From a virus: a stretch of 41,902 bases of DNA. The DNA lies in the IMG/VR virus record IMGVR_UViG_3300025913_000068, positions 1-41,902 of that record; one strand, given 5' to 3'. This document shows positions 9,508-39,989 of the stretch, one piece after another. Within the stretch, counting starts at the first letter, position 1. The number at the start of each line of letters is the position of its first letter. The notes under the pieces were generated by a model. The model searched no databases. It was given only the letters and a program-made list of their open reading frames with translations, and was not told the origin of the DNA. The position numbers were made by a program, and so were the translations under genes.

Positions 9508-10773
9508 ATGACCTTAAACCAAATCATACACGGAAAATTAGAGGATAATATAAAAGACCTGCCAGATAACTGCATCGATGCCATGCCGACGGATCCACCC
9601 TATGGTCTGAAGTTTATGGGAAAGAAGTGGGATCATTCTGTGCCATCCGTGGAATCCTGGAAAGAAGTATATCGGGTGTTAAAACCCGGTGGTCACATGC
9701 TGGTTGCGTGCGGGACCAGGACCCAACACCGCATGGTCGTCAATATTGAGGATGCCGGGTTTGAGATCAGGGATATAATTACATGGCATTATGGAGAGGG
9801 GTTCCCGAAGTCCATGGATATAAGCAAGCAGATTGATAAGGAGGCGGGAGCGGAGAGGGTTGTTCTTGGGATAAACCATGCGGCAGCGGCTCGGAATCCT
9901 AGACCGAGAAAAATCTCCGGTCAGAACAGAAATTTTGGTGAGGATAAGAGATGCGGTGAAGATTTTTCTATTACTAAAGCCGCTACTAATGCCGCGAAGG
10001 CATGGGACGGCTGGGGAACAGCCATAAAGCCCGCTACGGAATTCTGGACCTTGGCTCGTAAGCCTATAAGCGAAAAAACGGTCGCGGCAAATGTCCTTCG
10101 GTGGGGAGTAGGGGCGCTGAATATTGATGCCTGCAGAATCCCATTCCAAAATGACAGTGATTTCAAATCTGCCACTTTCGGTACCGGAACGAATATAATC
10201 GGAGGAAATTATGCGGGTGGAAATCACAAGCTTGATAGCGATCGCAAGAATATTGAAGCCAATCGCAGAGGTCGTTTCCCGGCCAATATAATTCTTGACC
10301 AATTCATGGCGGCGGAGATGGATGTGCAGAGTGGAGAAAGGAAGGCCGGCGGATCCGTCAGCGGAAATGAAGCCTCGCTGCCCGCTAAGAATGTCTACGG
10401 TGAATATGGTCGCCGTAGTTTTCAGGCGCATGGCGATTCCGGCGGCGCCTCCCGTTTTTTCAAAGTCATCAAATGGACTGAAGAAGACCGCTTCTGGGAA
10501 AGGTTCTTCTATGTCCCCAAGCCCAGCCCGGAAGAGCGCAAAGCCTACAACAACCACCCTACGGTGAAGCCCCTTGCGCTCATGCATTACTTGATAAAGA
10601 TGATCTGCCCGATTGAACCGGGCCGCGTCATCCTGGACCCCTTCGCAGGATCTGGAACTACTCTGATTGCAGCGCGTCAGTTGGGACTGGACTTTGTGGC
10701 TTACGAGATGGAAGCAGCGCATATACCGATTATAGAACAACGATTGAAAGACTTTTTAGGATTATTCATATGA
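9508..10773 (+). CDS. DNA methyltransferase, beta class (N4-cytosine or N6-adenine)
   Basis: 421 residues. The catalytic TDPPYG (D29-Y32) precedes the AdoMet-binding DPFAGSGTT (377-385), the beta-class order. Between them lies a long variable part likely to hold target recognition (about residues 120-320). A PTVKPLALMHYLI segment precedes the AdoMet motif, as in many such enzymes. It would methylate phage DNA to resist host restriction. N4C and N6A enzymes of this class cannot be told apart by eye. It overlaps the next methyltransferase gene by 4 nt. Confidence 0.85.
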   Translation: MTLNQIIHGKLEDNIKDLPDNCIDAMPTDPPYGLKFMGKKWDHSVPSVESWKEVYRVLKPGGHMLVACGTRTQHRMVVNIEDAGFEIRDIITWHYGEGFPKSMDISKQIDKEAGAERVVLGINHAAAARNPRPRKISGQNRNFGEDKRCGEDFSITKAATNAAKAWDGWGTAIKPATEFWTLARKPISEKTVAANVLRWGVGALNIDACRIPFQNDSDFKSATFGTGTNIIGGNYAGGNHKLDSDRKNIEANRRGRFPANIILDQFMAAEMDVQSGERKAGGSVSGNEASLPAKNVYGEYGRRSFQAHGDSGGASRFFKVIKWTEEDRFWERFFYVPKPSPEERKAYNNHPTVKPLALMHYLIKMICPIEPGRVILDPFAGSGTTLIAARQLGLDFVAYEMEAAHIPIIEQRLKDFLGLFI

Positions 10774-11612
10774 CGAATATCAAACGCCCAATATTACGAT
10801 ACCACGGAGGGAAGTTCCTGCTGGCAAAATGGATCATCAGCCATTTCCCGGCGCATAGGATCTATACGGAGGCTTTTGGAGGGGCGGCCAGCGTGTTGAT
10901 GCAAAAGCCCAGGTCATATGCCGAGGTCTATAATGATAAGTGGGATACTGTAGTGAATGTTTTCCGGATACTAAGAGATCCTGTACAAGCCCAAAGACTT
11001 GAGCGGCTTTTAAGATTAACCCCCTTTGCCAGAACGGAATTTTTAAAATCCGGTGAAATAGAAATTCTCGCCGCTGCCGATCCCTTGGAGAGAGCGAGGC
11101 TTACCATCCTGAGATCCTTTGCCAGCTTCGGAAGTCCTGGGACCAACGCTAAGCACGCTACCGGCTTCCGGGCAAATGCTCACCGAAATGGAACTACACC
11201 AGCGGGAGATTGGGCGAACTATCCCGGCCATATCAAGCACTTCACCGAACGGTTGACGGGCGTCATTATAGAAAACAGGGAGTACTCTGAAATCATAGAT
11301 CAGCACGATGGGCCTGATACGCTTCATTATCTCGACCCGCCTTACCCGCAGTCTACCAGGAACATGCAAAGAGGCAATGCCTCATATGCTCACGAGATCG
11401 ACGATAAAGTCCATGTGGCTATGGCCGAACAGCTGAAAGGTATTAAGGGTATGGCCATTGTTTCTGGCTATCGATGTGATTTATATGACGACTTGTTTGC
11501 CGGCTGGCATAGGTCGGAAAAGAAGGCCTTTGCCGACGGCGCGTCTCCCAGAATAGAATGCCTTTGGATTAACGACAATGCTATGAGGAGAAGCAATGGA
11601 AAGTTATTATGA
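10770..11612 (+). CDS. D12-class N6-adenine DNA methyltransferase (Dam-like)
   Basis: 280 residues. The N-terminus has YHGGKFLLAKWI (the AdoMet-binding motif I of D12/alpha enzymes), then TEAFGGAASVLM. The catalytic motif is DPPY (189-192) in YLDPPYPQSTR. Size and motif order fit D12-class N6-adenine methyltransferases. It shares a 4-nt overlap with the upstream methyltransferase, so both are likely made together. Target site unknown. Confidence 0.85.
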   Translation: MTNIKRPILRYHGGKFLLAKWIISHFPAHRIYTEAFGGAASVLMQKPRSYAEVYNDKWDTVVNVFRILRDPVQAQRLERLLRLTPFARTEFLKSGEIEILAAADPLERARLTILRSFASFGSPGTNAKHATGFRANAHRNGTTPAGDWANYPGHIKHFTERLTGVIIENREYSEIIDQHDGPDTLHYLDPPYPQSTRNMQRGNASYAHEIDDKVHVAMAEQLKGIKGMAIVSGYRCDLYDDLFAGWHRSEKKAFADGASPRIECLWINDNAMRRSNGKLL

Positions 11613-20776: not shown

Positions 20777-21364
20777 GTGAGCAGTAAGGACGCAATAAAT
20801 AAGGCCAAGGCTACAGAAATCTGCGCAGACATGCTATGGGCTGGCAAAACAAGGCCCGATATCCTGCAATTCTTCGCAGAACGATACAGCGCCAAGGTTC
20901 GGACCATTGACGGGTACATCGCAGATGCCCGCCTGCTCAATGAGAAGCGCAGGGAGGCTGCCGAAGCGCTCAGGGCGGAGAAGGATAAGGAAGAGATCGA
21001 GGCCATCGCAAAAGAGCTTGGAATCACTCGTATGTCACAGCTGGCTGAATTGAAGAAGGTGGGATATATGGACCCCCGCAAGCTCTACCATGATGACGGA
21101 TCCCCCAAAGAAATAAGCCAACTAGATGATGAGACAGCCGGTGCCATAGCCGGCATAGAGACTTTGGAGGAACGCGACCCCTTCACCAAAAAGGTCATCG
21201 GAACTACCAAAAAGATAAAGAAGGAGAATAAGCTCACCGCCTTGTCGGAGATCAATCGTATGATGGGGTGGGTGACCCCCAATACCGTCAAGGTAGAGGC
21301 TGAGGAAAAAGGAGGCAAGGGCCAAACGGCAAAGAAGATATCCGTAACCTTAAACCTGAGCTGA
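20777..21364 (+). CDS. Terminase small subunit
   Basis: 195 residues with a GTG start. The N-terminal region is helical DNA-binding-like (ICADMLWAGKTRPDILQFFA). The C-terminal half has MDPRKLYHDDGSPKEISQLD, DETAGAIAGIETLEER and TTKKIKKENKLTALSEINRM, which is the Terminase_2 pattern (dP-kL-f, lDd-ta-ai, iKl-dK-aL). It recognises phage DNA for packaging. The large subunit is 4 kb away, which is unusual. Confidence 0.75.
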   Translation: MSSKDAINKAKATEICADMLWAGKTRPDILQFFAERYSAKVRTIDGYIADARLLNEKRREAAEALRAEKDKEEIEAIAKELGITRMSQLAELKKVGYMDPRKLYHDDGSPKEISQLDDETAGAIAGIETLEERDPFTKKVIGTTKKIKKENKLTALSEINRMMGWVTPNTVKVEAEEKGGKGQTAKKISVTLNLS

Positions 21365-21368
21365 GCCA

Positions 21369-21962
21369 ATGACAAGGGACGCCATCATCAACCAGCTATT
21401 CACCGGGAAGAACTTCAACGACTGTATCGGTAGAATGGAGCCGGCGCACTTACAAGACGATTTGAAGATGGAGGTAATTGCAATTGTCTGTGAATGGAAT
21501 GACGAGAAGATCAGAGGATTGCATGAGCGGAAGGAGCTTGATTTTTATGTGGTGCGGGTGATCCTCAACCTTATCCAATCGAATACCAGCCCTTTCTATA
21601 AGAAGTTCAGGGTGCCTTCCGGCAATGTGGTATATGATGAATATGGGAAAGAGGATGTTTATACAGTCCTGGAGCATTACAACCGGATGCCGAGACATGG
21701 AGAAAACAGAAACCCGGCAGTTGCCACGCCCTCTTTTCTCGATGAAGCGGACGAGTTGGATAGGAGAACCACAAGGGAGGAAAAGGAAGTAAAGGCGCTG
21801 GAAGAGGCCGAAGGGCTTTACTGGTATCACAAAAACATGCTGGCCCTTTATATCGAGCACGGCACGTACAGGGCGGTGGAAAAGGCAACGAGGGTGCCCT
21901 ATGTCTCCTGCTTTCGAACGGTCTCTCAATCTATTCAGGAAATACGTCAAAAGATTTTATGA
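21369..21962 (+). CDS. Possible sigma-like regulator of unknown family (197 aa)
   Basis: The N-terminus has HLQDDLKMEVIAIVCEWNDE and FYVVRVILNLIQSNTSPFYK, resembling region 2 of sigma-70-like proteins. The C-terminus has MLALYIEHGTYRAVEKATRV, PYVSCFRTVSQSIQEIRQK, with an HTH-like end. Similarity to sigma factors is weak but in order. It may be a phage late sigma factor or anti-sigma-like protein. Overlaps the next gene by 4 nt. Confidence 0.4.
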   Translation: MTRDAIINQLFTGKNFNDCIGRMEPAHLQDDLKMEVIAIVCEWNDEKIRGLHERKELDFYVVRVILNLIQSNTSPFYKKFRVPSGNVVYDEYGKEDVYTVLEHYNRMPRHGENRNPAVATPSFLDEADELDRRTTREEKEVKALEEAEGLYWYHKNMLALYIEHGTYRAVEKATRVPYVSCFRTVSQSIQEIRQKIL

Positions 21963-22183
21963 TACACTGGAATATTTTAATCATCGCCTTGTCCCTAGCG
22001 TTCTGCCAGGTGGTGGTGCTGCACTTTGGATCGATCAAACCGTTCAATTGTATCAAGTGCATGACTGGCTGGTATGCCCTGGTGATAGGGTGCTGGCTGG
22101 TTGGCTGGCATGGGGTTGTTTACCTGCCGCTGGGGGTTTTTGTTGGGGCGATGTTTGAAGCAATTAAAATGAGATGGTTATGA
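21959..22183 (+). CDS. Small membrane protein with CxxC (74 aa)
   Basis: Two hydrophobic segments (residues 3-22 and about 38-65) surround KPFNCIKCMTGWYALVIG. The CxxC followed by a GW segment occurs in small membrane proteins near phage glycan genes. It overlaps the GT4 gene start by 4 nt. Function unknown. Membrane anchoring of the neighbouring sugar enzymes is a guess. Confidence 0.55.
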   Translation: MIHWNILIIALSLAFCQVVVLHFGSIKPFNCIKCMTGWYALVIGCWLVGWHGVVYLPLGVFVGAMFEAIKMRWL

Positions 22184-23193
22184 GGATCATCGCCTACGCC
22201 CCAGCCAACAACGGCCCCGCGTATCACCGGATATACATGCCCCTGATGAATATGGACGGCCCGGATGTTTTTATTACAAACTGCCTGAAGGAAGAACATT
22301 TCGAAAAAGGGTGCGATCTGTTCATGTACAATAGGGTATTGCCGGAAGAAGGCATGGAGCAATTCAACCGACTGCGGGAAAAGTACGGCTTCCGGGTTTG
22401 CGTGGATATAGACGACTATTGGGAGCTGGACCCTCACCATATCCTCTATAAAGAAAGCATTGATCAGGGATTTGCTAAACAGCAGATCAGGCACTTGCAG
22501 CATGCTGATGTAATCCTGACCACGCATGAAAGATTGGCGGAGCAGATAAGAGATATATTACCGCAAGCGGCGGCCCACATCTGCCCCAATGCCATCCTAC
22601 GGAAAGACCAATTCAATATAATTCGTTCCCGCTCCGATAAGACTCGCCTTTTCTGGCAGGGGTCCATTACCCATAAAGAGGATATACGGCTTTTGGAGCG
22701 GCCCATTCAAGCCCTAGCGCCCATTTCAGACAAGATAAAGATGGTCCTGGCTGGCTACCAGGAAGATGAGCAGGAATGGCACGATATGGTGCATTCCTAC
22801 ACCTATGACTTGAAGCACATTTACAAGCTCATCTCCGGTACCGACGTACACGAATACTATGCGGCCTATGCCCATGCTGACATATGCCTTGTCCCGCTGG
22901 TTAATTCCCCTTTCAACCGAATGAAAAGTAACCTGAAGATCTTGGAGGCTGCGAACATGGGCCTGCCGGTTATTGCTTCCGGGGTGCATCCCTATCTCGG
23001 CATGCCTGTATCTTTCTGTAAAAACAGCCGGGATTGGATCGGTCATATTAAAAGGCTGGTCCAGTGGCCTGCGCGAAGGGAAGAAGAAGGGCAGCGGCTG
23101 GCAGAATACTGCCAGGAACATTACAACTTCCATAAGATCAATAACGAGCGGCGTCAGATTTTGGAGTATGTCGCTACAAAAGCAAACGCATGA
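22180..23193 (+). CDS. GT4-family glycosyltransferase
   Basis: 337 residues from the ATG at 22180, overlapping the previous stop. The upstream ATG at 22174 is possible. The fold is GT-B. MRIIAYAPANNGPAYHRIYM at the N-terminus binds the acceptor side. The C-terminal half has LFWQGSITHKEDIRLL and ADICLVPLVNSPFNRMKSNL, then KILEAANMGLPVIASG, the donor-binding E-x-x-xxxG-PVI region of GT4 enzymes. It would move a sugar from a nucleotide-sugar to an unknown acceptor. Unusual location between terminase genes. Confidence 0.8.
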   Translation: MRIIAYAPANNGPAYHRIYMPLMNMDGPDVFITNCLKEEHFEKGCDLFMYNRVLPEEGMEQFNRLREKYGFRVCVDIDDYWELDPHHILYKESIDQGFAKQQIRHLQHADVILTTHERLAEQIRDILPQAAAHICPNAILRKDQFNIIRSRSDKTRLFWQGSITHKEDIRLLERPIQALAPISDKIKMVLAGYQEDEQEWHDMVHSYTYDLKHIYKLISGTDVHEYYAAYAHADICLVPLVNSPFNRMKSNLKILEAANMGLPVIASGVHPYLGMPVSFCKNSRDWIGHIKRLVQWPARREEEGQRLAEYCQEHYNFHKINNERRQILEYVATKANA

Positions 23194-23405
23194 GCACTGT
23201 ATTAAACTCATTAAGAGACGAGAATGAGCATAGGGAAGCAACCGATCTGTTGTCTGGAAAAATGATTTGTTCGGTGACTAAAAACACCAACAAAGACGAA
23301 GGGGTAATAATCCATCTTTCTGACGGATCGGCATTAGAAGTGGGGTTTTCTTCAAATGAAGGATCGATATTATACCATTATCCCAAAATAGTGAAGCTCT
23401 CATGA
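23190..23405 (+). CDS. Hypothetical small protein (71 aa)
   Basis: Beta-rich C-terminus (EGVIIHLSDGSALEVGFSSN). Overlaps neighbours by 4 nt, so it is made with the sugar genes. Not recognised. Confidence 0.45.
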   Translation: MSTVLNSLRDENEHREATDLLSGKMICSVTKNTNKDEGVIIHLSDGSALEVGFSSNEGSILYHYPKIVKLS

Positions 23406-23821
23406 AACCGGAAAATAAAGTCTTCCTCGAAGAAAACAGAAAGCACTGGAGCACTCTCCGCGATGCGAAATATCTCCGTCACCTGGACGGGAATACCCGC
23501 AGCCGCATGGTGCAGGTTATGTCCGAAGAGTTCCAGCCGGGCTACACGGCAGACCTATGGTGCGCTCCGTGCGTATCGGAGATGGTGACAACGTTGTATC
23601 AGAGGTTCGAGCAATGGGAGGCAGCGCAGGAAAAAGCCCTCCAAGAAGTAATGACTACCATAAACTCGAATCCGCCTATTGTAATTCAAATTACCGAAGC
23701 TGAAAAGCAGGCAATGGAGGAAAGGGCCAAAGCCTTGGAGGAGGCGGCAAATATCACGACAGTTAAGCCATTACAAGTACAGGCCAATTTCCCCTCACAC
23801 AAAAAGCATCATCGCCGATGA
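23402..23821 (+). CDS. Conserved phage-type protein (139 aa)
   Basis: MKPENKVFLEENRKHWSTLR and RSRMVQVMSEEFQPGYTADL, followed by WCAPCVSEMV, form a pattern I have seen in Bacteroidota phages near terminase genes. Residues 66-72 carry a WCAPC pair. The C-terminus is helical and basic. Function unknown. It may bind DNA ends or another packaging part. Confidence 0.5.
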   Translation: MKPENKVFLEENRKHWSTLRDAKYLRHLDGNTRSRMVQVMSEEFQPGYTADLWCAPCVSEMVTTLYQRFEQWEAAQEKALQEVMTTINSNPPIVIQITEAEKQAMEERAKALEEAANITTVKPLQVQANFPSHKKHHRR

Positions 23822-24051
23822 AAGAGACAATACCATTAAGGGCTGGCCTGAAATTCCGGTCAAAGACGTTCAGGGCCGAGGCGGAAATAGTCTCTATGGA
23901 CGAATCGACAGATACCATCCGCGTAAGGTTGACACCTTCAGACGGTAACGCGTATGAAAGCGAATGGCCGCTATTGGCTACAAAAGACCATTTCAAACAA
24001 GGCTTTTATTTCATTCCTGAGCATAAACCCAACGATGTAACCATATGGTAA
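23818..24051 (+). CDS. Hypothetical small protein (77 aa)
   Basis: Small beta-rich protein with LRAGLKFRSKTFRAEAEIV and DTIRVRLTPSDGNAYESEW. Fully coupled with neighbours. Not recognised. Confidence 0.45.
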   Translation: MKETIPLRAGLKFRSKTFRAEAEIVSMDESTDTIRVRLTPSDGNAYESEWPLLATKDHFKQGFYFIPEHKPNDVTIW

Positions 24052-24725
24052 CCATACACCCCACGGCCGTCATCGGCCCCAATGTAGAGATCGAGGACGA
24101 TGTATATATCGGACCCCTATGTGTTATTGGCTTTCCAGCTGAATGGAAGGGCAGGGAAGGGGAAGACAAGGGGGTTTTGATCTGCCGGGGTGCGCGGCTG
24201 ACAGGGTTGGTGACGGTTGACAGTGGGGTAGAGCGGCAGACGGTAATTGGAGAGCGGTGCTATCTCATGAAGCACAGTCATGTCGGGCATGACGCTAATT
24301 TGGTTGAGGACGTTATAGTAAGCTGTGGCGCCAAGATCGGTGGTCATGCGGAGATAATGTCCAGTGTAAATATTGGCCTAAATGCTGTCATTCACCAACG
24401 GCAACGGATAGAAGCATGTAGCATGATCGGGATGGGGGCGGTAATCACCAAGGGCCTGAAGACGGTCGAATTCGGAGTGTATGTCGGAAATCCCGCCAGG
24501 TTTCTCCGAGAAAATACCTCACACCGCAGCTATTCCATGTCAAAAACAATTGAGTATAAGGGATATATCATTAAAACCGAAGAATACCTAAATTATAAAA
24601 AATGTCACTACGAGATAAAGGACGCCAATGGGGTTGTGGTGGAAAACTCTCTTTGGTATGATAATACTTATTCGCCTGTCGAGCATGCCATCAGTTCGGC
24701 GAAAAATTACATTGATAAGTTATGA
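24045..24725 (+). CDS. LpxA-like left-handed beta-helix acyltransferase with C-terminal extension
   Basis: 226 residues. Residues 1-160 are hexapeptide repeats like LpxA (IHPTAVIGPNVEIEDDVYIG, then TVIGERCYLMKHSHVGHD). KHSHVGHD matches the catalytic-His region of LpxA (VHVAHD), and it ends with VYVGNPARFL. It would transfer an acyl or acetyl group to a sugar. The last 62 residues (starting MSKTIEYKGYIIKTEEYL) form a separate small beta domain not found in LpxA. An in-frame ATG at 24537 begins exactly there, so it could also be made alone. LpxA-type chain length and donor cannot be read from the sequence. Confidence 0.75.
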   Translation: MVTIHPTAVIGPNVEIEDDVYIGPLCVIGFPAEWKGREGEDKGVLICRGARLTGLVTVDSGVERQTVIGERCYLMKHSHVGHDANLVEDVIVSCGAKIGGHAEIMSSVNIGLNAVIHQRQRIEACSMIGMGAVITKGLKTVEFGVYVGNPARFLRENTSHRSYSMSKTIEYKGYIIKTEEYLNYKKCHYEIKDANGVVVENSLWYDNTYSPVEHAISSAKNYIDKL

Positions 24726-25366
24726 AAGTCTCCATCATCTTCTTGGACTACATGCGCCACGACTATACCGCCCGGGTAAAAGCCCAGAACTTTGGCAACG
24801 CGGGCCACGACTTCAGCTTGGTGACCGTGGACCGGAAGGGCATTGCTGCTGCCCTAAATGAAGGAATAGCGAGATCTCGGGGGCACGACGCGATTGTCAC
24901 CATGGCAAACGATATCCTCATGCCCGCCGGCTGGCTGGCTGCTATGGTAGTCGCTGCGCAGGCCATACCCAATACCGGCATGTGCGGCATTCATTGCGTG
25001 GAAGGATTGGAAAGCCCGGAGCCCGTGAATATGGGCGGCGTCCTGGTTCATCCGAACTTTACCGCCTTTGGCAATGCGCTGATCCCATTTTCAGCCATCG
25101 ACAAGATCGGCGGATTTAATGAGGAATATGATCCGTACGGAATGCATGATAGCGATTTTGCCTATCGGCTGAATAAGACAGGACACATCAATTACTATCT
25201 GCATGGGCTGAAGTCTGAGCATATCGGCCATGATGTAGGCAATGGAACCGAATACCGCACCATGAAGGATGCCGGGCTTGCGGCGGCAGCCGATAAGTGG
25301 GGAAGGTTGACAGAAGAATACGACCGCAGCAGTAATTACACCATTAATCTCCCGGAATGGCCGTAA
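24722..25366 (+). CDS. GT2-family glycosyltransferase
   Basis: 214 residues. MKVSIIFLDYMRHDYTARVK starts a Rossmann-type GT-A fold. GIAAALNEGIARSRGHD leads to AIVTMANDIL, where the DxD-like metal site lies, and GGFNEEYDPYGMHDSDFAYR is typical of the acceptor side of GT2 enzymes. It is shorter than many GT2 enzymes but complete in motifs. It overlaps the terminase large subunit start by 10 nt, so this sugar cassette is tied to packaging-gene expression. Confidence 0.8.
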   Translation: MKVSIIFLDYMRHDYTARVKAQNFGNAGHDFSLVTVDRKGIAAALNEGIARSRGHDAIVTMANDILMPAGWLAAMVVAAQAIPNTGMCGIHCVEGLESPEPVNMGGVLVHPNFTAFGNALIPFSAIDKIGGFNEEYDPYGMHDSDFAYRLNKTGHINYYLHGLKSEHIGHDVGNGTEYRTMKDAGLAAAADKWGRLTEEYDRSSNYTINLPEWP

Positions 25367-26775
25367 CCAGATCAAAGAAAGCGGACAATCAAAGCCTGGA
25401 AATTGAATATAACCGGCCCTTCCTTTACGAGTATCAAAAGAAAATAATCGATAGCCCGGCCCGATACACTGTCTGCCTCGCTGCGACAAAGTGCGGGAAA
25501 ACAGCCTCGCACATCGTATGGCTTTTCGAACAGGCGCTACAATGTGCCAGAGATCCAACCATGCGCCGGGAAAGATTGGTTGTAGACGAAAACGGTCAAC
25601 TGGTCAAAGAGGGGGGAAGGGTTGTATATATTATCAACGAAGACCCCGAGCTCCTCAATCAATCCGTGTGGTGGGTAGCCCCTACCTTCGGCCAGGCAAA
25701 GATCGCTTTCAATCGCATGAAGGCTCAACTGCGGGCGACCGAGACAGACACCGGGAAGCCCATGGATAAAAAAGAGCTTTTTACAGCCAATGAGACAAAC
25801 CTGATCATTACCCTTGCGACCGGCGTAAAGATCGAATTTAAGACTGGGGAGAAGCCGGATAATCTGTATGGGGATGACGTTTATGCTTTTGTTTTTGATG
25901 AATTTACCAGGGCCAGGGAAGGCGCCTGGCACGCCCTGCGGTCCACCATCACCAGCACGGGCGGTAAAGGAAAGTTCATCGGCAACGCAAAGGATAAAAA
26001 GAATTGGGGTAATAAGCTGGCTATGAGGGCAAAGTCCGGGGTAGATCCGGACTTCGAATACCACAAGATTACGGCCTACGACGCTGCGGCCGCCGGCATG
26101 AAGACGAAGGACGGCCGCCCCTTCTTGGAAGAGATCGAAGCGGCAAAGCGGGACTTACCCGAGAGTGTGTTCAATGAGCTTTACCTGGCGGAGCCTTCCG
26201 AGGATGGTAGCAATCCTTTCGGACTGAAACACATAGCGGCCTGTTGTGTGCCTGGCTTGTCAGATCAACCGGCCATCTGTTATGGCATCGACCTTGCCAG
26301 AAAGATAGATTCTGTCTCGATCATGGGGCTGGACAAGCTGGGGCATGTCTCGCATTATGACAATTTTACGAAGCAATCCTGGCCCCATACCGTTGAACGT
26401 ATAAAGTACCTGCCCAACAAGCCAATGGCCATGGATAGCACCGGCGTGGGTGATGTGATTCTTTCCCAGGTGGAGCAGACCCAAAGCCAGGTGGAAGGGT
26501 ATATCTTCAGCCAGATCAGTAAGCAACGACTTATGGAAGGGCTGGCACTGGCTATTCAATCCCGCAAAATCTACATTCCCGACGACGATAATGTCGTCAG
26601 CGGCACGGGCAAGATCCGTCACCAGTTGGAACAGTTCGAGGTGGTATATACCCGCACCGGGGTAAAGTACTCCGCGCCCGACGGAGATCATGATGATGAC
26701 GTAGTTTCTCTTGCTTTAGCTTGGCACAAATATCAAACCTGCGCAATTAGCGGGGATGAGATAAGTGTTTATTAA
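25357..26775 (+). CDS. Terminase large subunit
   Basis: 472 residues. Walker A is ATKCGKT (43-49); Walker B with catalytic Glu is FVFDEF (D181, E182). The nuclease domain has CYGIDLA (D312), AMDS (D360) and DGDHDDD (442-448) as the three acidic metal-binding motifs. It packages DNA into the prohead by ATP hydrolysis and cuts it. Full length with all motifs present. A long segment between Walker A and VWWVAPTFGQAK may be family-specific. Confidence 0.9.
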   Translation: MAVTRSKKADNQSLEIEYNRPFLYEYQKKIIDSPARYTVCLAATKCGKTASHIVWLFEQALQCARDPTMRRERLVVDENGQLVKEGGRVVYIINEDPELLNQSVWWVAPTFGQAKIAFNRMKAQLRATETDTGKPMDKKELFTANETNLIITLATGVKIEFKTGEKPDNLYGDDVYAFVFDEFTRAREGAWHALRSTITSTGGKGKFIGNAKDKKNWGNKLAMRAKSGVDPDFEYHKITAYDAAAAGMKTKDGRPFLEEIEAAKRDLPESVFNELYLAEPSEDGSNPFGLKHIAACCVPGLSDQPAICYGIDLARKIDSVSIMGLDKLGHVSHYDNFTKQSWPHTVERIKYLPNKPMAMDSTGVGDVILSQVEQTQSQVEGYIFSQISKQRLMEGLALAIQSRKIYIPDDDNVVSGTGKIRHQLEQFEVVYTRTGVKYSAPDGDHDDDVVSLALAWHKYQTCAISGDEISVY

Positions 26776-37453: not shown

Positions 37454-37840
37454 ATGCTGCAATTCAAGCAGAATGATACGGCCGTTGCAATTATCTTGAC
37501 GCTGACAGAGCTCGTAACCCTGCCAGCGCCCAACTATCTATTCGTATTCACGCACGTAACGACAAAGGACCAGGTGGCTTTCGTTAAGCTCAACAGCGAT
37601 GATGAAAGCAGCTATCCCGCTAGGTATAACCAATTCACCATCGATCCGTCTGTACTATTCGCAGGAAAAAATACCGGCGAATGGCATTATGTGGTCTATG
37701 AACAGGCGGACGCGGTCAATACCGATCCGGCGCGGGCGGGATCAGTGACAGAGTATGGGAAAATGATATTCAACCGGTCTGCGGACTTCTCTTATCAAAT
37801 GTATAATTCCTCCACCCAATACATGGCATACAATGGCTGA
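37454..37840 (+). CDS. Phage protein before the portal (128 aa)
   Basis: Beta-rich small protein with LLTELVTLPAPNYLFVFTHV-like strand patterns (residues 14-34) and a YVVYEQADAVNTDPARAGSV segment. It overlaps the portal start by 8 nt. Not assigned to a family. It is likely a virion or connector component. Confidence 0.5.
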   Translation: MLQFKQNDTAVAIILTLTELVTLPAPNYLFVFTHVTTKDQVAFVKLNSDDESSYPARYNQFTIDPSVLFAGKNTGEWHYVVYEQADAVNTDPARAGSVTEYGKMIFNRSADFSYQMYNSSTQYMAYNG

Positions 37841-39989
37841 GGCAATGACTATACCGGTAACAGCGGACATTGACGATGACGATTATAGCCCCGTCGGTGT
37901 TACGGTACTGAAGTTTGCCGACAGTGCAATCCCCGTCTTTAAGGAAGCCCGCAATAAGGACTACATAAAGTACGGAGAGAACAACGCGTATCCGGAATAC
38001 CTGACATATCTATTCGACAAGTCGAGCAAGCACGGCGCCATTATCGGGGGTAAGGCTATATACATCTATGGGAAGGGGTTCGAGAATGGAGATTTCGTCA
38101 TAAACCGCCTCGGAGAATCATTGAATGATATCTCGAAGAAAGCTATCCTGGACACCCGCATGTATGGCGGTTTCTATTTCGAAGTATTATATAACCGCCA
38201 AGGAAAAGTATGTGAGGTTTATCATGTCGATTGGAATACGATCCGCGTTGGAAAAAATGGCGGGTTCTGGTGGAAGGAGCAATGGACGATCAAAGATATA
38301 GGAGGCCGTATTACGGAAAACAATAAAGAGGAGGCGATCTTCATACCTTCTTTTGATCCATCGCAACCGTTTACCTCTCAGATATATGCCTATAAGGAGT
38401 ATAGGCCCGGTCAGCGATACTACCCGCTGCCCGATTACATCCCCTGCAACAATTACGTAGAGACGGATATCGAGATCAGCAAGTTTTACCTGTCCTCTAT
38501 CCGCAACGGCATGATGCCTTCCAAGATGCTGCAATTTTATATGGGGGATCCGGGCGAGGAAAAGAAACGCGCATTGGAAAGAAGTTTTGCCAGGAAATTT
38601 GCGGGCGCTGAAAATGCCGGAAAGTTTGTGCTGGTGTTCAATGCCGGCGGAAAGGACAAAACGGTCGATGTGCAGGACCTATCCGGCTCCGAGCTGGATA
38701 AGATGTTTGTGGAGTTGAATAAGACCGTACAGCAGGAGATATTGAGCGGGCACCAGGTGACAAGCCCCATGTTATTTGGCATTAAGACAGAGGGGCAGCT
38801 CGGCGGGAATACGGAGCTTCAATTAGCCTATAACATTTTTCGAAGCACCTACGCAGACGCGAAAGCGGATGCATTTGACAAGGAGGTTAATTTCTTACTT
38901 GGCTATTCTGTTTTTCCTGGACAATACAAACTGCAGCCGACCGATCCGGTCGGTGTACAGTTCGATGTGAAGGAACTTATAAACTCGCTGCCGAAAGCCT
39001 GGGTTTTTGAAAAGCTGGGCGTTCCGCAAAATATGTGGTCCTTGCCTAATATCGGTTCAGACAATAAGCCGACAGATCCTACTGTCCCCGTACACACGCC
39101 AGCGGCGCCGGTCGCAGAGCAGCAACAATCTGCCGTCAACGACGCCATACGCAATCTTACGGCCAAGCAGCATCAGCAGGTAATGCGGATAATGCGCCAG
39201 CATGCCAAAGGACAATTAACGGACATGGCTGCAAAGGCGTTGCTTAGGACCGGCTATGGTTTGGGGGAAAGCGATATCAACGAGCTATTAGGCATCATTC
39301 CGGTATCGGCCATGGCCTTTGAGGATATGAGTCAAGATGAAAAGATAGACGCCGTAATTGGTTTGTTTGATGCGTGCGGCGATGCGCGGGATGACTATGA
39401 GATAATCAAGACGAAAAAAGTAAAGTTTGATAGTGAGGAAGATTTGGCCGGCGACGAAGTTATTTTCATGGAGGCTGCCTTTAAGACATATGACGTAACG
39501 GCCACAGAGAATAAGATATTGGAATTGATCAAGAAAGATAAGCGTATTACGCCCGATGTGATTGCGCAGACCATTGGTCAAACCAGGGCATATGTGGAAA
39601 ATAAAATTTCCAGTCTGGAAAAGCGCGGTCTTCTTGAAGAGTCTTCTTCCATGGATGGAGCAGATGAGATTATTGAGCGCACCATCCCTGATGCGGCTGA
39701 TATTACCGCTCCGCCGCCGACTACCAAAGTACCACCTACGCAGATCTATGTCAAATACAGCTACGAAGTAAAACCGGGTATCGGTCCCCCAATAATAGAA
39801 AATACGCGGCCTTTTTGCAGGCGTATGCTGGCGCTGAGGCGGCTGTACTCCCGCGCCGAAATAGAAAAGATATCAGCCAGGTTGGGGTATAGTGTGTTTG
39901 ATCGGAAAGGGGGATGGTGGGGAGATAAGCCAGAATGCAGGCACCGCTGGGTCAGCCACGTGGTGGTAAAAAAGGGAGGTGACGAATGA
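37833..39989 (+). CDS. Portal protein with winged-helix and Cys/His-rich C-terminal extension
   Basis: 718 residues, longer than common portals (about 400-550). The first 420 residues hold the portal core: KYGENNAYPEYLTYLFDKSS, GFYFEVLYNRQGKVCEVYHV, and ITSPMLFGIK-like HQVTSPMLFGIKTEGQLGGN. A winged-helix segment (residues 553-603) follows, ENKILELIKKDKRITPDVIA then GQTRAYVENKISSLEKRGLL. The last 60 residues carry RPFCRRMLALRRLYSRAEIE (C662) and ECRHRW (C702, H704), like the metal-site end of MuF-type minor head proteins. Portal-minor head fusion is inferred. The winged helix is unusual. Confidence 0.75.
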   Translation: MAEAMTIPVTADIDDDDYSPVGVTVLKFADSAIPVFKEARNKDYIKYGENNAYPEYLTYLFDKSSKHGAIIGGKAIYIYGKGFENGDFVINRLGESLNDISKKAILDTRMYGGFYFEVLYNRQGKVCEVYHVDWNTIRVGKNGGFWWKEQWTIKDIGGRITENNKEEAIFIPSFDPSQPFTSQIYAYKEYRPGQRYYPLPDYIPCNNYVETDIEISKFYLSSIRNGMMPSKMLQFYMGDPGEEKKRALERSFARKFAGAENAGKFVLVFNAGGKDKTVDVQDLSGSELDKMFVELNKTVQQEILSGHQVTSPMLFGIKTEGQLGGNTELQLAYNIFRSTYADAKADAFDKEVNFLLGYSVFPGQYKLQPTDPVGVQFDVKELINSLPKAWVFEKLGVPQNMWSLPNIGSDNKPTDPTVPVHTPAAPVAEQQQSAVNDAIRNLTAKQHQQVMRIMRQHAKGQLTDMAAKALLRTGYGLGESDINELLGIIPVSAMAFEDMSQDEKIDAVIGLFDACGDARDDYEIIKTKKVKFDSEEDLAGDEVIFMEAAFKTYDVTATENKILELIKKDKRITPDVIAQTIGQTRAYVENKISSLEKRGLLEESSSMDGADEIIERTIPDAADITAPPPTTKVPPTQIYVKYSYEVKPGIGPPIIENTRPFCRRMLALRRLYSRAEIEKISARLGYSVFDRKGGWWGDKPECRHRWVSHVVVKKGGDE

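Follow-up and report, generated by a model that had tools for sequence, protein, structure and literature searches.

A putative glycosyltransferase and LpxA-like acyltransferase module at the terminase end of a phage late gene run

Virion glycosylation of tailed phages has been documented in very few systems. In mycobacteriophages, glycans are reported on the capsid and tail tube (Freeman 2023, as cited in PMC12619734). In phage Corndog, an O-methyltransferase and glycosyltransferases (GTs) encoded between the portal and protease genes were proposed to modify the capsid; these enzymes are produced in infected cells and were undetected in virions (PMC4351075). Here we analyse a locus in the 41.9 kb virus record IMGVR_UViG_3300025913_000068, the whole stretch of which forms our window. 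Eight genes (21369-25366) are packed tightly between a Terminase_2-type small terminase subunit gene (TerS) and the large subunit gene (TerL), including genes for a GT4-type GT, an LpxA-like acyltransferase and a GT2-type GT. As in Corndog (cluster O, gp35-gp38), GTs and a modifying enzyme lie inside a late operon of head, structural and packaging genes, but the likeness is one of gene context. The Corndog set sits between portal and protease, its host belongs to a different phylum, and no LpxA-like enzyme is mentioned for it. Conversely, none of the cassette genes in the window encodes a methyltransferase, although TylF, FkbM or CmcI types occur in some relatives. GT cassettes in late phage operons are known; here a predicted LpxA-like acyltransferase is added, and the module is present in Chitinophaga assemblies. 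We found no paper on a GT4/LpxA-like/GT2 module in the open literature.

We consider it somewhat more likely than not that the set is a late, cytoplasmic virion-glycosylation module of the Corndog kind with an added sugar acyltransferase, the acceptor, sugars and acyl group all being putative. A single late message would run from a 70-nt gap before TerS, through the set and into TerL and the tail and head genes. A soluble GT4 (GT-B fold) and GT2 (GT-A fold) would assemble a short sugar unit, presumably from host nucleotide sugars, and the LpxA-like enzyme would acylate or acetylate one of the sugars, either before or after transfer. In some relatives, added methyltransferases, an aminotransferase and further glycosyltransferases would diversify the glycan. 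The decorated capsid or tail protein might then mask or change the particle surface, to the presumed benefit of the phage. This model builds on features read from sequence: the order and overlap of the genes, the predicted folds and conserved active sites of the enzymes, purifying selection and recurrence as a unit.

An earlier interpretation made from the letters alone (hereafter the sequence-only reading) had described eight coupled genes here, and all eight open reading frames (ORFs) are present. It also gave overlaps of 4-10 nt at every junction. This holds within the set (-4, -10 or -4, -4, -4, -4, -7 and -4 nt) and from the set to TerL (-10 nt), but TerS and the first gene of the set are separated by a 4-nt gap, the sole non-overlap across the TerS-to-TerL genes. 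The listed genes at 20777-41347 all lie on one strand and are nearly gapless. This late run opens with TerS and also contains TerL, the tape measure, a protease, a capsid-like protein and the portal, so that the set shares its strand with, and is near-contiguous with, the structural genes, as expected if it acts on the virion. TerS, TerL and all features of the set between them are on the plus strand.

The GT4 gene occupies 22180..23193; its ORF opens at 22174, but a start at 22180 agrees better with the relatives and creates an ATGA overlap. The protein matches PF13692 (37 bits, cut-off 27) and phrog_7162 (E 2.5e-59), and its structure model (pLDDT 95.2) finds GlgM, PglA and BshA as the best folds in the Protein Data Bank (PDB), with GT-B matches at E 1e-12. 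Ten residues (H18, R19, D78, D80, D81, H167, G194, K251, K255 and E258) are kept in 159/159 homologues. Of the E-x7-E motif, the second Glu (E258) is present in 159/159, while the first is replaced (M250 and K251 are invariant), a loss common to the whole subfamily. The model and alignment together indicate that this is a GT-B glycosyltransferase with a conserved active site. Its relatives in annotated phages are of the phrog_7162 type, at about 30% identity. Those of Phapecoctavirus and Justusliebigvirus belong to the same GT4 family and are likewise paired with further GTs; unlike the window, these are large myophages with no annotated LpxA-like neighbour, and the genes are not beside the terminase in the stretch read. 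A single-sequence GT4 scan of IMG/VR gave no match, but an alignment-based scan did retrieve relatives.

The GT4 model also resembles small-molecule GTs (GlgM, BshA, SenB), which would suit a module that glycosylates a host protein or makes a small glycolipid or metabolite for secretion, unrelated to the virion or to envelope polymers. We find this very unlikely; no transporter or biosynthetic partner was seen, and it leaves the linkage to structural genes unexplained.

The GT2 gene (24722..25366) matches PF00535 at 24.9 bits (cut-off 23.3). Its structure model (pLDDT 93.4) has polypeptide (protein O-) GalNAc transferases as best PDB folds, with SpsA and WrtF close behind. Residues D64, D143, R149, H167 and K182 are kept in 145/145 homologues, and both the metal-site Asp and the catalytic Asp are present, so the protein is, on the model, a GT-A glycosyltransferase with a conserved active site. 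A GT2 scan of bacterial genomes with few patterns gave no relative; the later LpxA scan reached Chitinophaga loci with GT2-like genes.

The LpxA-like protein (whole ORF 24045-24725, Hexapep 45 bits) consists of a left-handed beta-helix acyltransferase core (24045..24524), identified by PDB profile matches, and a C-terminal extension (24525..24725) of about 66 aa. The extension has a GC fraction of 0.363 and an internal ATG at 24537, is absent from relatives, and is probably a fused inserted ORF. The profile finds PDB entry 8e62 first (E 7e-55), followed by LpxA entries from E 2.6e-24. The former (189 aa) is the closest solved relative, at no more than 54% identity to cassette proteins; it is annotated as a UDP-N-acetylglucosamine acyltransferase, and we found no paper on its source or function in the open literature, leaving the annotation only. 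As in LpxA, the predicted beta-helix carries HxxHD, GGH and HQ active-site motifs. The catalytic positions are nearly invariant (H82 in 142/142, H79 in 141/142, D83 in 141, H101 in 140/142 and H117 in 141/142), showing that the catalytic His and surrounding LpxA motifs are retained in the aligned sequences. With this, the three enzymes named by the sequence-only reading all have recognisable folds, and alignments give intact catalytic positions. The refuting conditions which that reading had set itself (a cassette dispersed or missing in relatives, or damaged active sites) do not overturn it, although the set is lacking in some TerL relatives.

A true LpxA was rejected. The NCBIfam equivalogs score far under their cut-offs (NF003657 at 84.8 bits against 226; TIGR01852 at 82 against 231). 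Unlike LpxA, of about 257-283 aa, the cassette relatives have only 158-162 aa; the core ends near N157 and stops where the C-terminal domain, which contributes to UDP-GlcNAc binding, would begin. The second nearest family, also sub-cut-off, is the NeuD/PglD/VioB sugar acetyltransferases (TIGR03570, 74.5 bits against 160.8). These enzymes act on amino or sialic sugars, sometimes for protein glycosylation. An earlier study reported lpxA-like genes in viruses as belonging to lipid A metabolism (PMC9529941); we caution against annotating phage genes such as this one in that way. On two phage contigs of 115 and 162 kb (L119 and L121), LpxA-like genes are directly flanked by glycosyltransferase-like ORFs, outside the TerL-linked module.

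We gathered relatives through the cassette genes or TerL, and the fractions below should therefore not be read as population frequencies. IMG/VR holds at least 90 relatives by GT2 search, at least 584 by LpxA-profile search and at least 558 by GT4-profile search. Most of the 80 loci fetched by GT2 alone also carry GT4 and LpxA-like genes. The loci counted comprise 80 with a GT2 relative and 73 each with a GT4 and an LpxA-like relative, even though many of the contigs are short. With the window included and GT4-sequence duplicates removed, 101 loci span the interval from the first (sigma-like) gene to TerL, and 80 of these carry GT4, LpxA-like and GT2 together within it, in three main gene orders. 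In 85 gene pairs GT2 follows immediately after the LpxA-like gene, and the position of GT4 shifts around that pair. Chance clustering was rejected, as relatives keep the set together. Four TerL-fetched relatives have GT4 but neither LpxA-like nor GT2, and four others (L005-L008) have none of the three enzymes within the stretch read, indicating that the set is accessory. The sequence-only reading, which placed the coupled sugar and acyl enzymes in the packaging and late region, is thus borne out by a unit kept in many phages, but not in all. DNA searches against annotated phages gave no match, and no close GT2 or LpxA-like relative was present among the annotated phages in the collection searched.

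Purifying selection acts on each of the three enzymes much as it does on TerL, with median dN/dS ratios of 0.066 (GT4), 0.076 (GT2) and 0.10 (LpxA-like) against 0.054 for TerL. Across 31 genomes, cassette distances track the tail genes g27 and g28 (r 0.79-0.93) better than TerL (r 0.65-0.82). This suggests that the cassette is a stable part of these phages and TerL is swapped more often, with shared descent contributing to the pattern.

The sequence-only reading also laid weight on the position of the set between the two terminase genes. This did not carry over to the relatives, where TerS lies upstream or downstream of the set depending on the locus. TerS comes before the set in the window and in L172, where it is of the Sf6_terminase type, and in L166 a helix-turn-helix protein ahead of the set is probably TerS. 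In L093, by contrast, the set comes first, GP3_package and a TerL from a different family lie downstream of it, and the genes beyond these are again homologous. In Chitinophaga varians (L095) the set is 3' of an ORF that resembles a terminase by eye. The gene directly upstream of TerL encodes, in many relatives, a DUF5681-like protein (L174:4033-4401, about 160 relatives), a possible substitute for TerS. Because of this variation, the steady feature is the location at the terminase end of the late run, and the TerS/TerL split matters only locally.

The module is also found in bacterial assemblies, complete in Chitinophaga sp. sic0106 (L093), C. cymbidii (L097) and a Chitinophagaceae metagenome-assembled genome (L096), with the three enzymes also present in C. 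varians. A genus-group search for L093 gave strong phage-type matches in 3/79 genomes. At least some module-carrying phages infect Chitinophaga and kin, and lysogens may exist, which brings in a reading where the enzymes, acting in infected cells or lysogens, alter a precursor of lipopolysaccharide (LPS), capsule or lipid A and so keep out superinfecting phages or stop progeny from adsorbing again to debris. The LpxA-related fold fits such a role, phage lpxA/lpxD genes have been interpreted as lipid A genes (PMC9529941), and phages are known to use GtrABS for serotype conversion (PMC11990801). However, the genomes of L093, L095 and L097 each also contain another, more distantly related LpxA-type gene that codes for 267-283 aa and is presumably the host lpxA, and the phage protein stops where the LpxA C-terminal domain starts. 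A place among packaging genes also points to late expression, a stage at which exclusion brings the phage the least gain.

Membrane topology bears on the same question. The three enzymes are predicted to be soluble, and none of 985 further ORFs in these intervals encodes a protein with at least four predicted membrane spans, which disfavours flippase-dependent serotype conversion. The intervals likewise showed neither a flippase nor a polytopic GT nor an AT3-type acyltransferase. Unlike GtrABS, the locus has no membrane flippase GtrA or polytopic Gtr, and the best GtrB-like match is phrog_841 at only E 0.021; simple serotype conversion was rejected on this ground. The sequence-only reading had set host-surface modification on a par with modification of the virion; we now regard the former as unlikely.

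The extra genes of relatives are sugar decorators, comprising a DegT aminotransferase, TylF, FkbM and CmcI methyltransferases and a PLOD-type GT. In a close relative, a DegT/DnrJ/EryC1 sugar aminotransferase-like ORF (L165:4789-5433) adjoins the cassette, and GIY-YIG-like ORFs, identified by eye, lie between genes of this locus. One extra cassette protein weakly matches a TET-associated GT (E 0.004), which would fit a module that glycosylates phage DNA against restriction. Many phage GTs do modify DNA (Pyle 2024, as cited in PMC12619734), and deazaguanine-type genes occur near the set in L128. There, ORFs resembling QueC, QueD, QueE and GCH1 by eye (L128:8838-11154) lie between GT2 and TerL, suggesting that this hotspot also houses genes for deazaguanine DNA modification. 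We nevertheless judge DNA glycosylation highly improbable. An acyltransferase would be unexpected, and no thymidylate or dCMP hydroxymethylase or TET/JBP-type domain was seen among the scanned window ORFs (the smallest ORFs left out), agreeing with the sequence-only reading, which had placed DNA modification lower as no base-hydroxylating enzyme was visible. Furthermore, phi92-like phages with putative glycosylation machinery are still restriction-sensitive (PMC8594841), and their Justusliebigvirus relatives carry this GT4 type.

The evidence against surface and DNA targets, the sugar-tailoring genes in relatives and the Corndog precedent therefore favour virion glycosylation. Several points weigh on the other side. 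The virion acceptor protein is putative, and Ser/Thr/Pro-rich stretches in structural proteins are unremarkable as acceptor evidence. Late transcription is deduced from gene order, with promoter scans giving nothing above chance. The GalNAc transferase matches of GT2 are modest (TM-score about 0.6, 8-14% identity) and mixed with the non-protein GTs SpsA and WrtF. Shared descent accounts for part of the distance correlations, and the L119 and L121 genes, with other GTs and off the TerL-linked module, indicate that terminase linkage is not universal. A bolder version, in which a minimal, repurposed LpxA equips the glycan coat of the virions with an acyl group other than acetyl, such as a fatty-acyl group, in many uncultured phages including some Chitinophaga phages, seems to us quite unlikely. 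If virion glycosylation is true, the compact module, which is common among phages from the environment, would offer a tractable second system and a new acyltransferase subfamily, and chemically diverse phage coats would be expected.

The other genes of the set are small or weakly assigned. The first (21369..21962) has relatives in 55 loci. The sequence-only reading called it sigma-like, which finds some backing in single relatives and none in the window protein, for which no sigma domain match was obtained. Among 16 relatives, one matches Sigma70_r2 (E 0.0014) and one Sigma70_r4_2 (E 0.03), and the best PDB match of the profile is the SigW C-terminal region (E 0.034), making the sigma assignment weak. 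The second gene (21959..22183) encodes a small CxxC membrane protein, recognised by alignment and hydropathy, with P28, C31, C34 and W38 invariant and at least two predicted membrane spans. It is co-inherited with the cassette, as is the small protein s2 (23402..23821), a conserved partner present in most loci, which has a CxxC and a Lys/Arg-rich tail with an AT-hook-like KKRGRPKK in several relatives. Of the remaining small ORFs, s1 (23190..23405, low GC of 0.389) has no relative among the fetched loci, and the sole relative seen for s3 (23818..24051) is L165:2516-2761.

The 70-nt gap upstream of TerS is the likely promoter site, although scans for Bacteroidota-type and sigma-70 consensus promoters gave no signal above chance. 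TerS itself (20777..21364) matches Pfam Terminase_2 at E 2.7e-5 and 25.3 bits, 0.8 bits below the cut-off of 26.1, and phrog_51 (terminase small subunit) at E 0.0059; its place and length fit the assignment despite the sub-cut-off score. TerL (25357..26775) matches phrog_2 at E 1e-24. The portal protein (37833-39989), about 11 kb from TerL, has a C-terminal winged-helix domain (HTH_24). Finally, the early region (9508-11612) encodes two neighbouring DNA methyltransferases (N6_N4_Mtase and D12 class), and a methylase like the one at 9508 is frequently found between GT2 and TerL in relatives.

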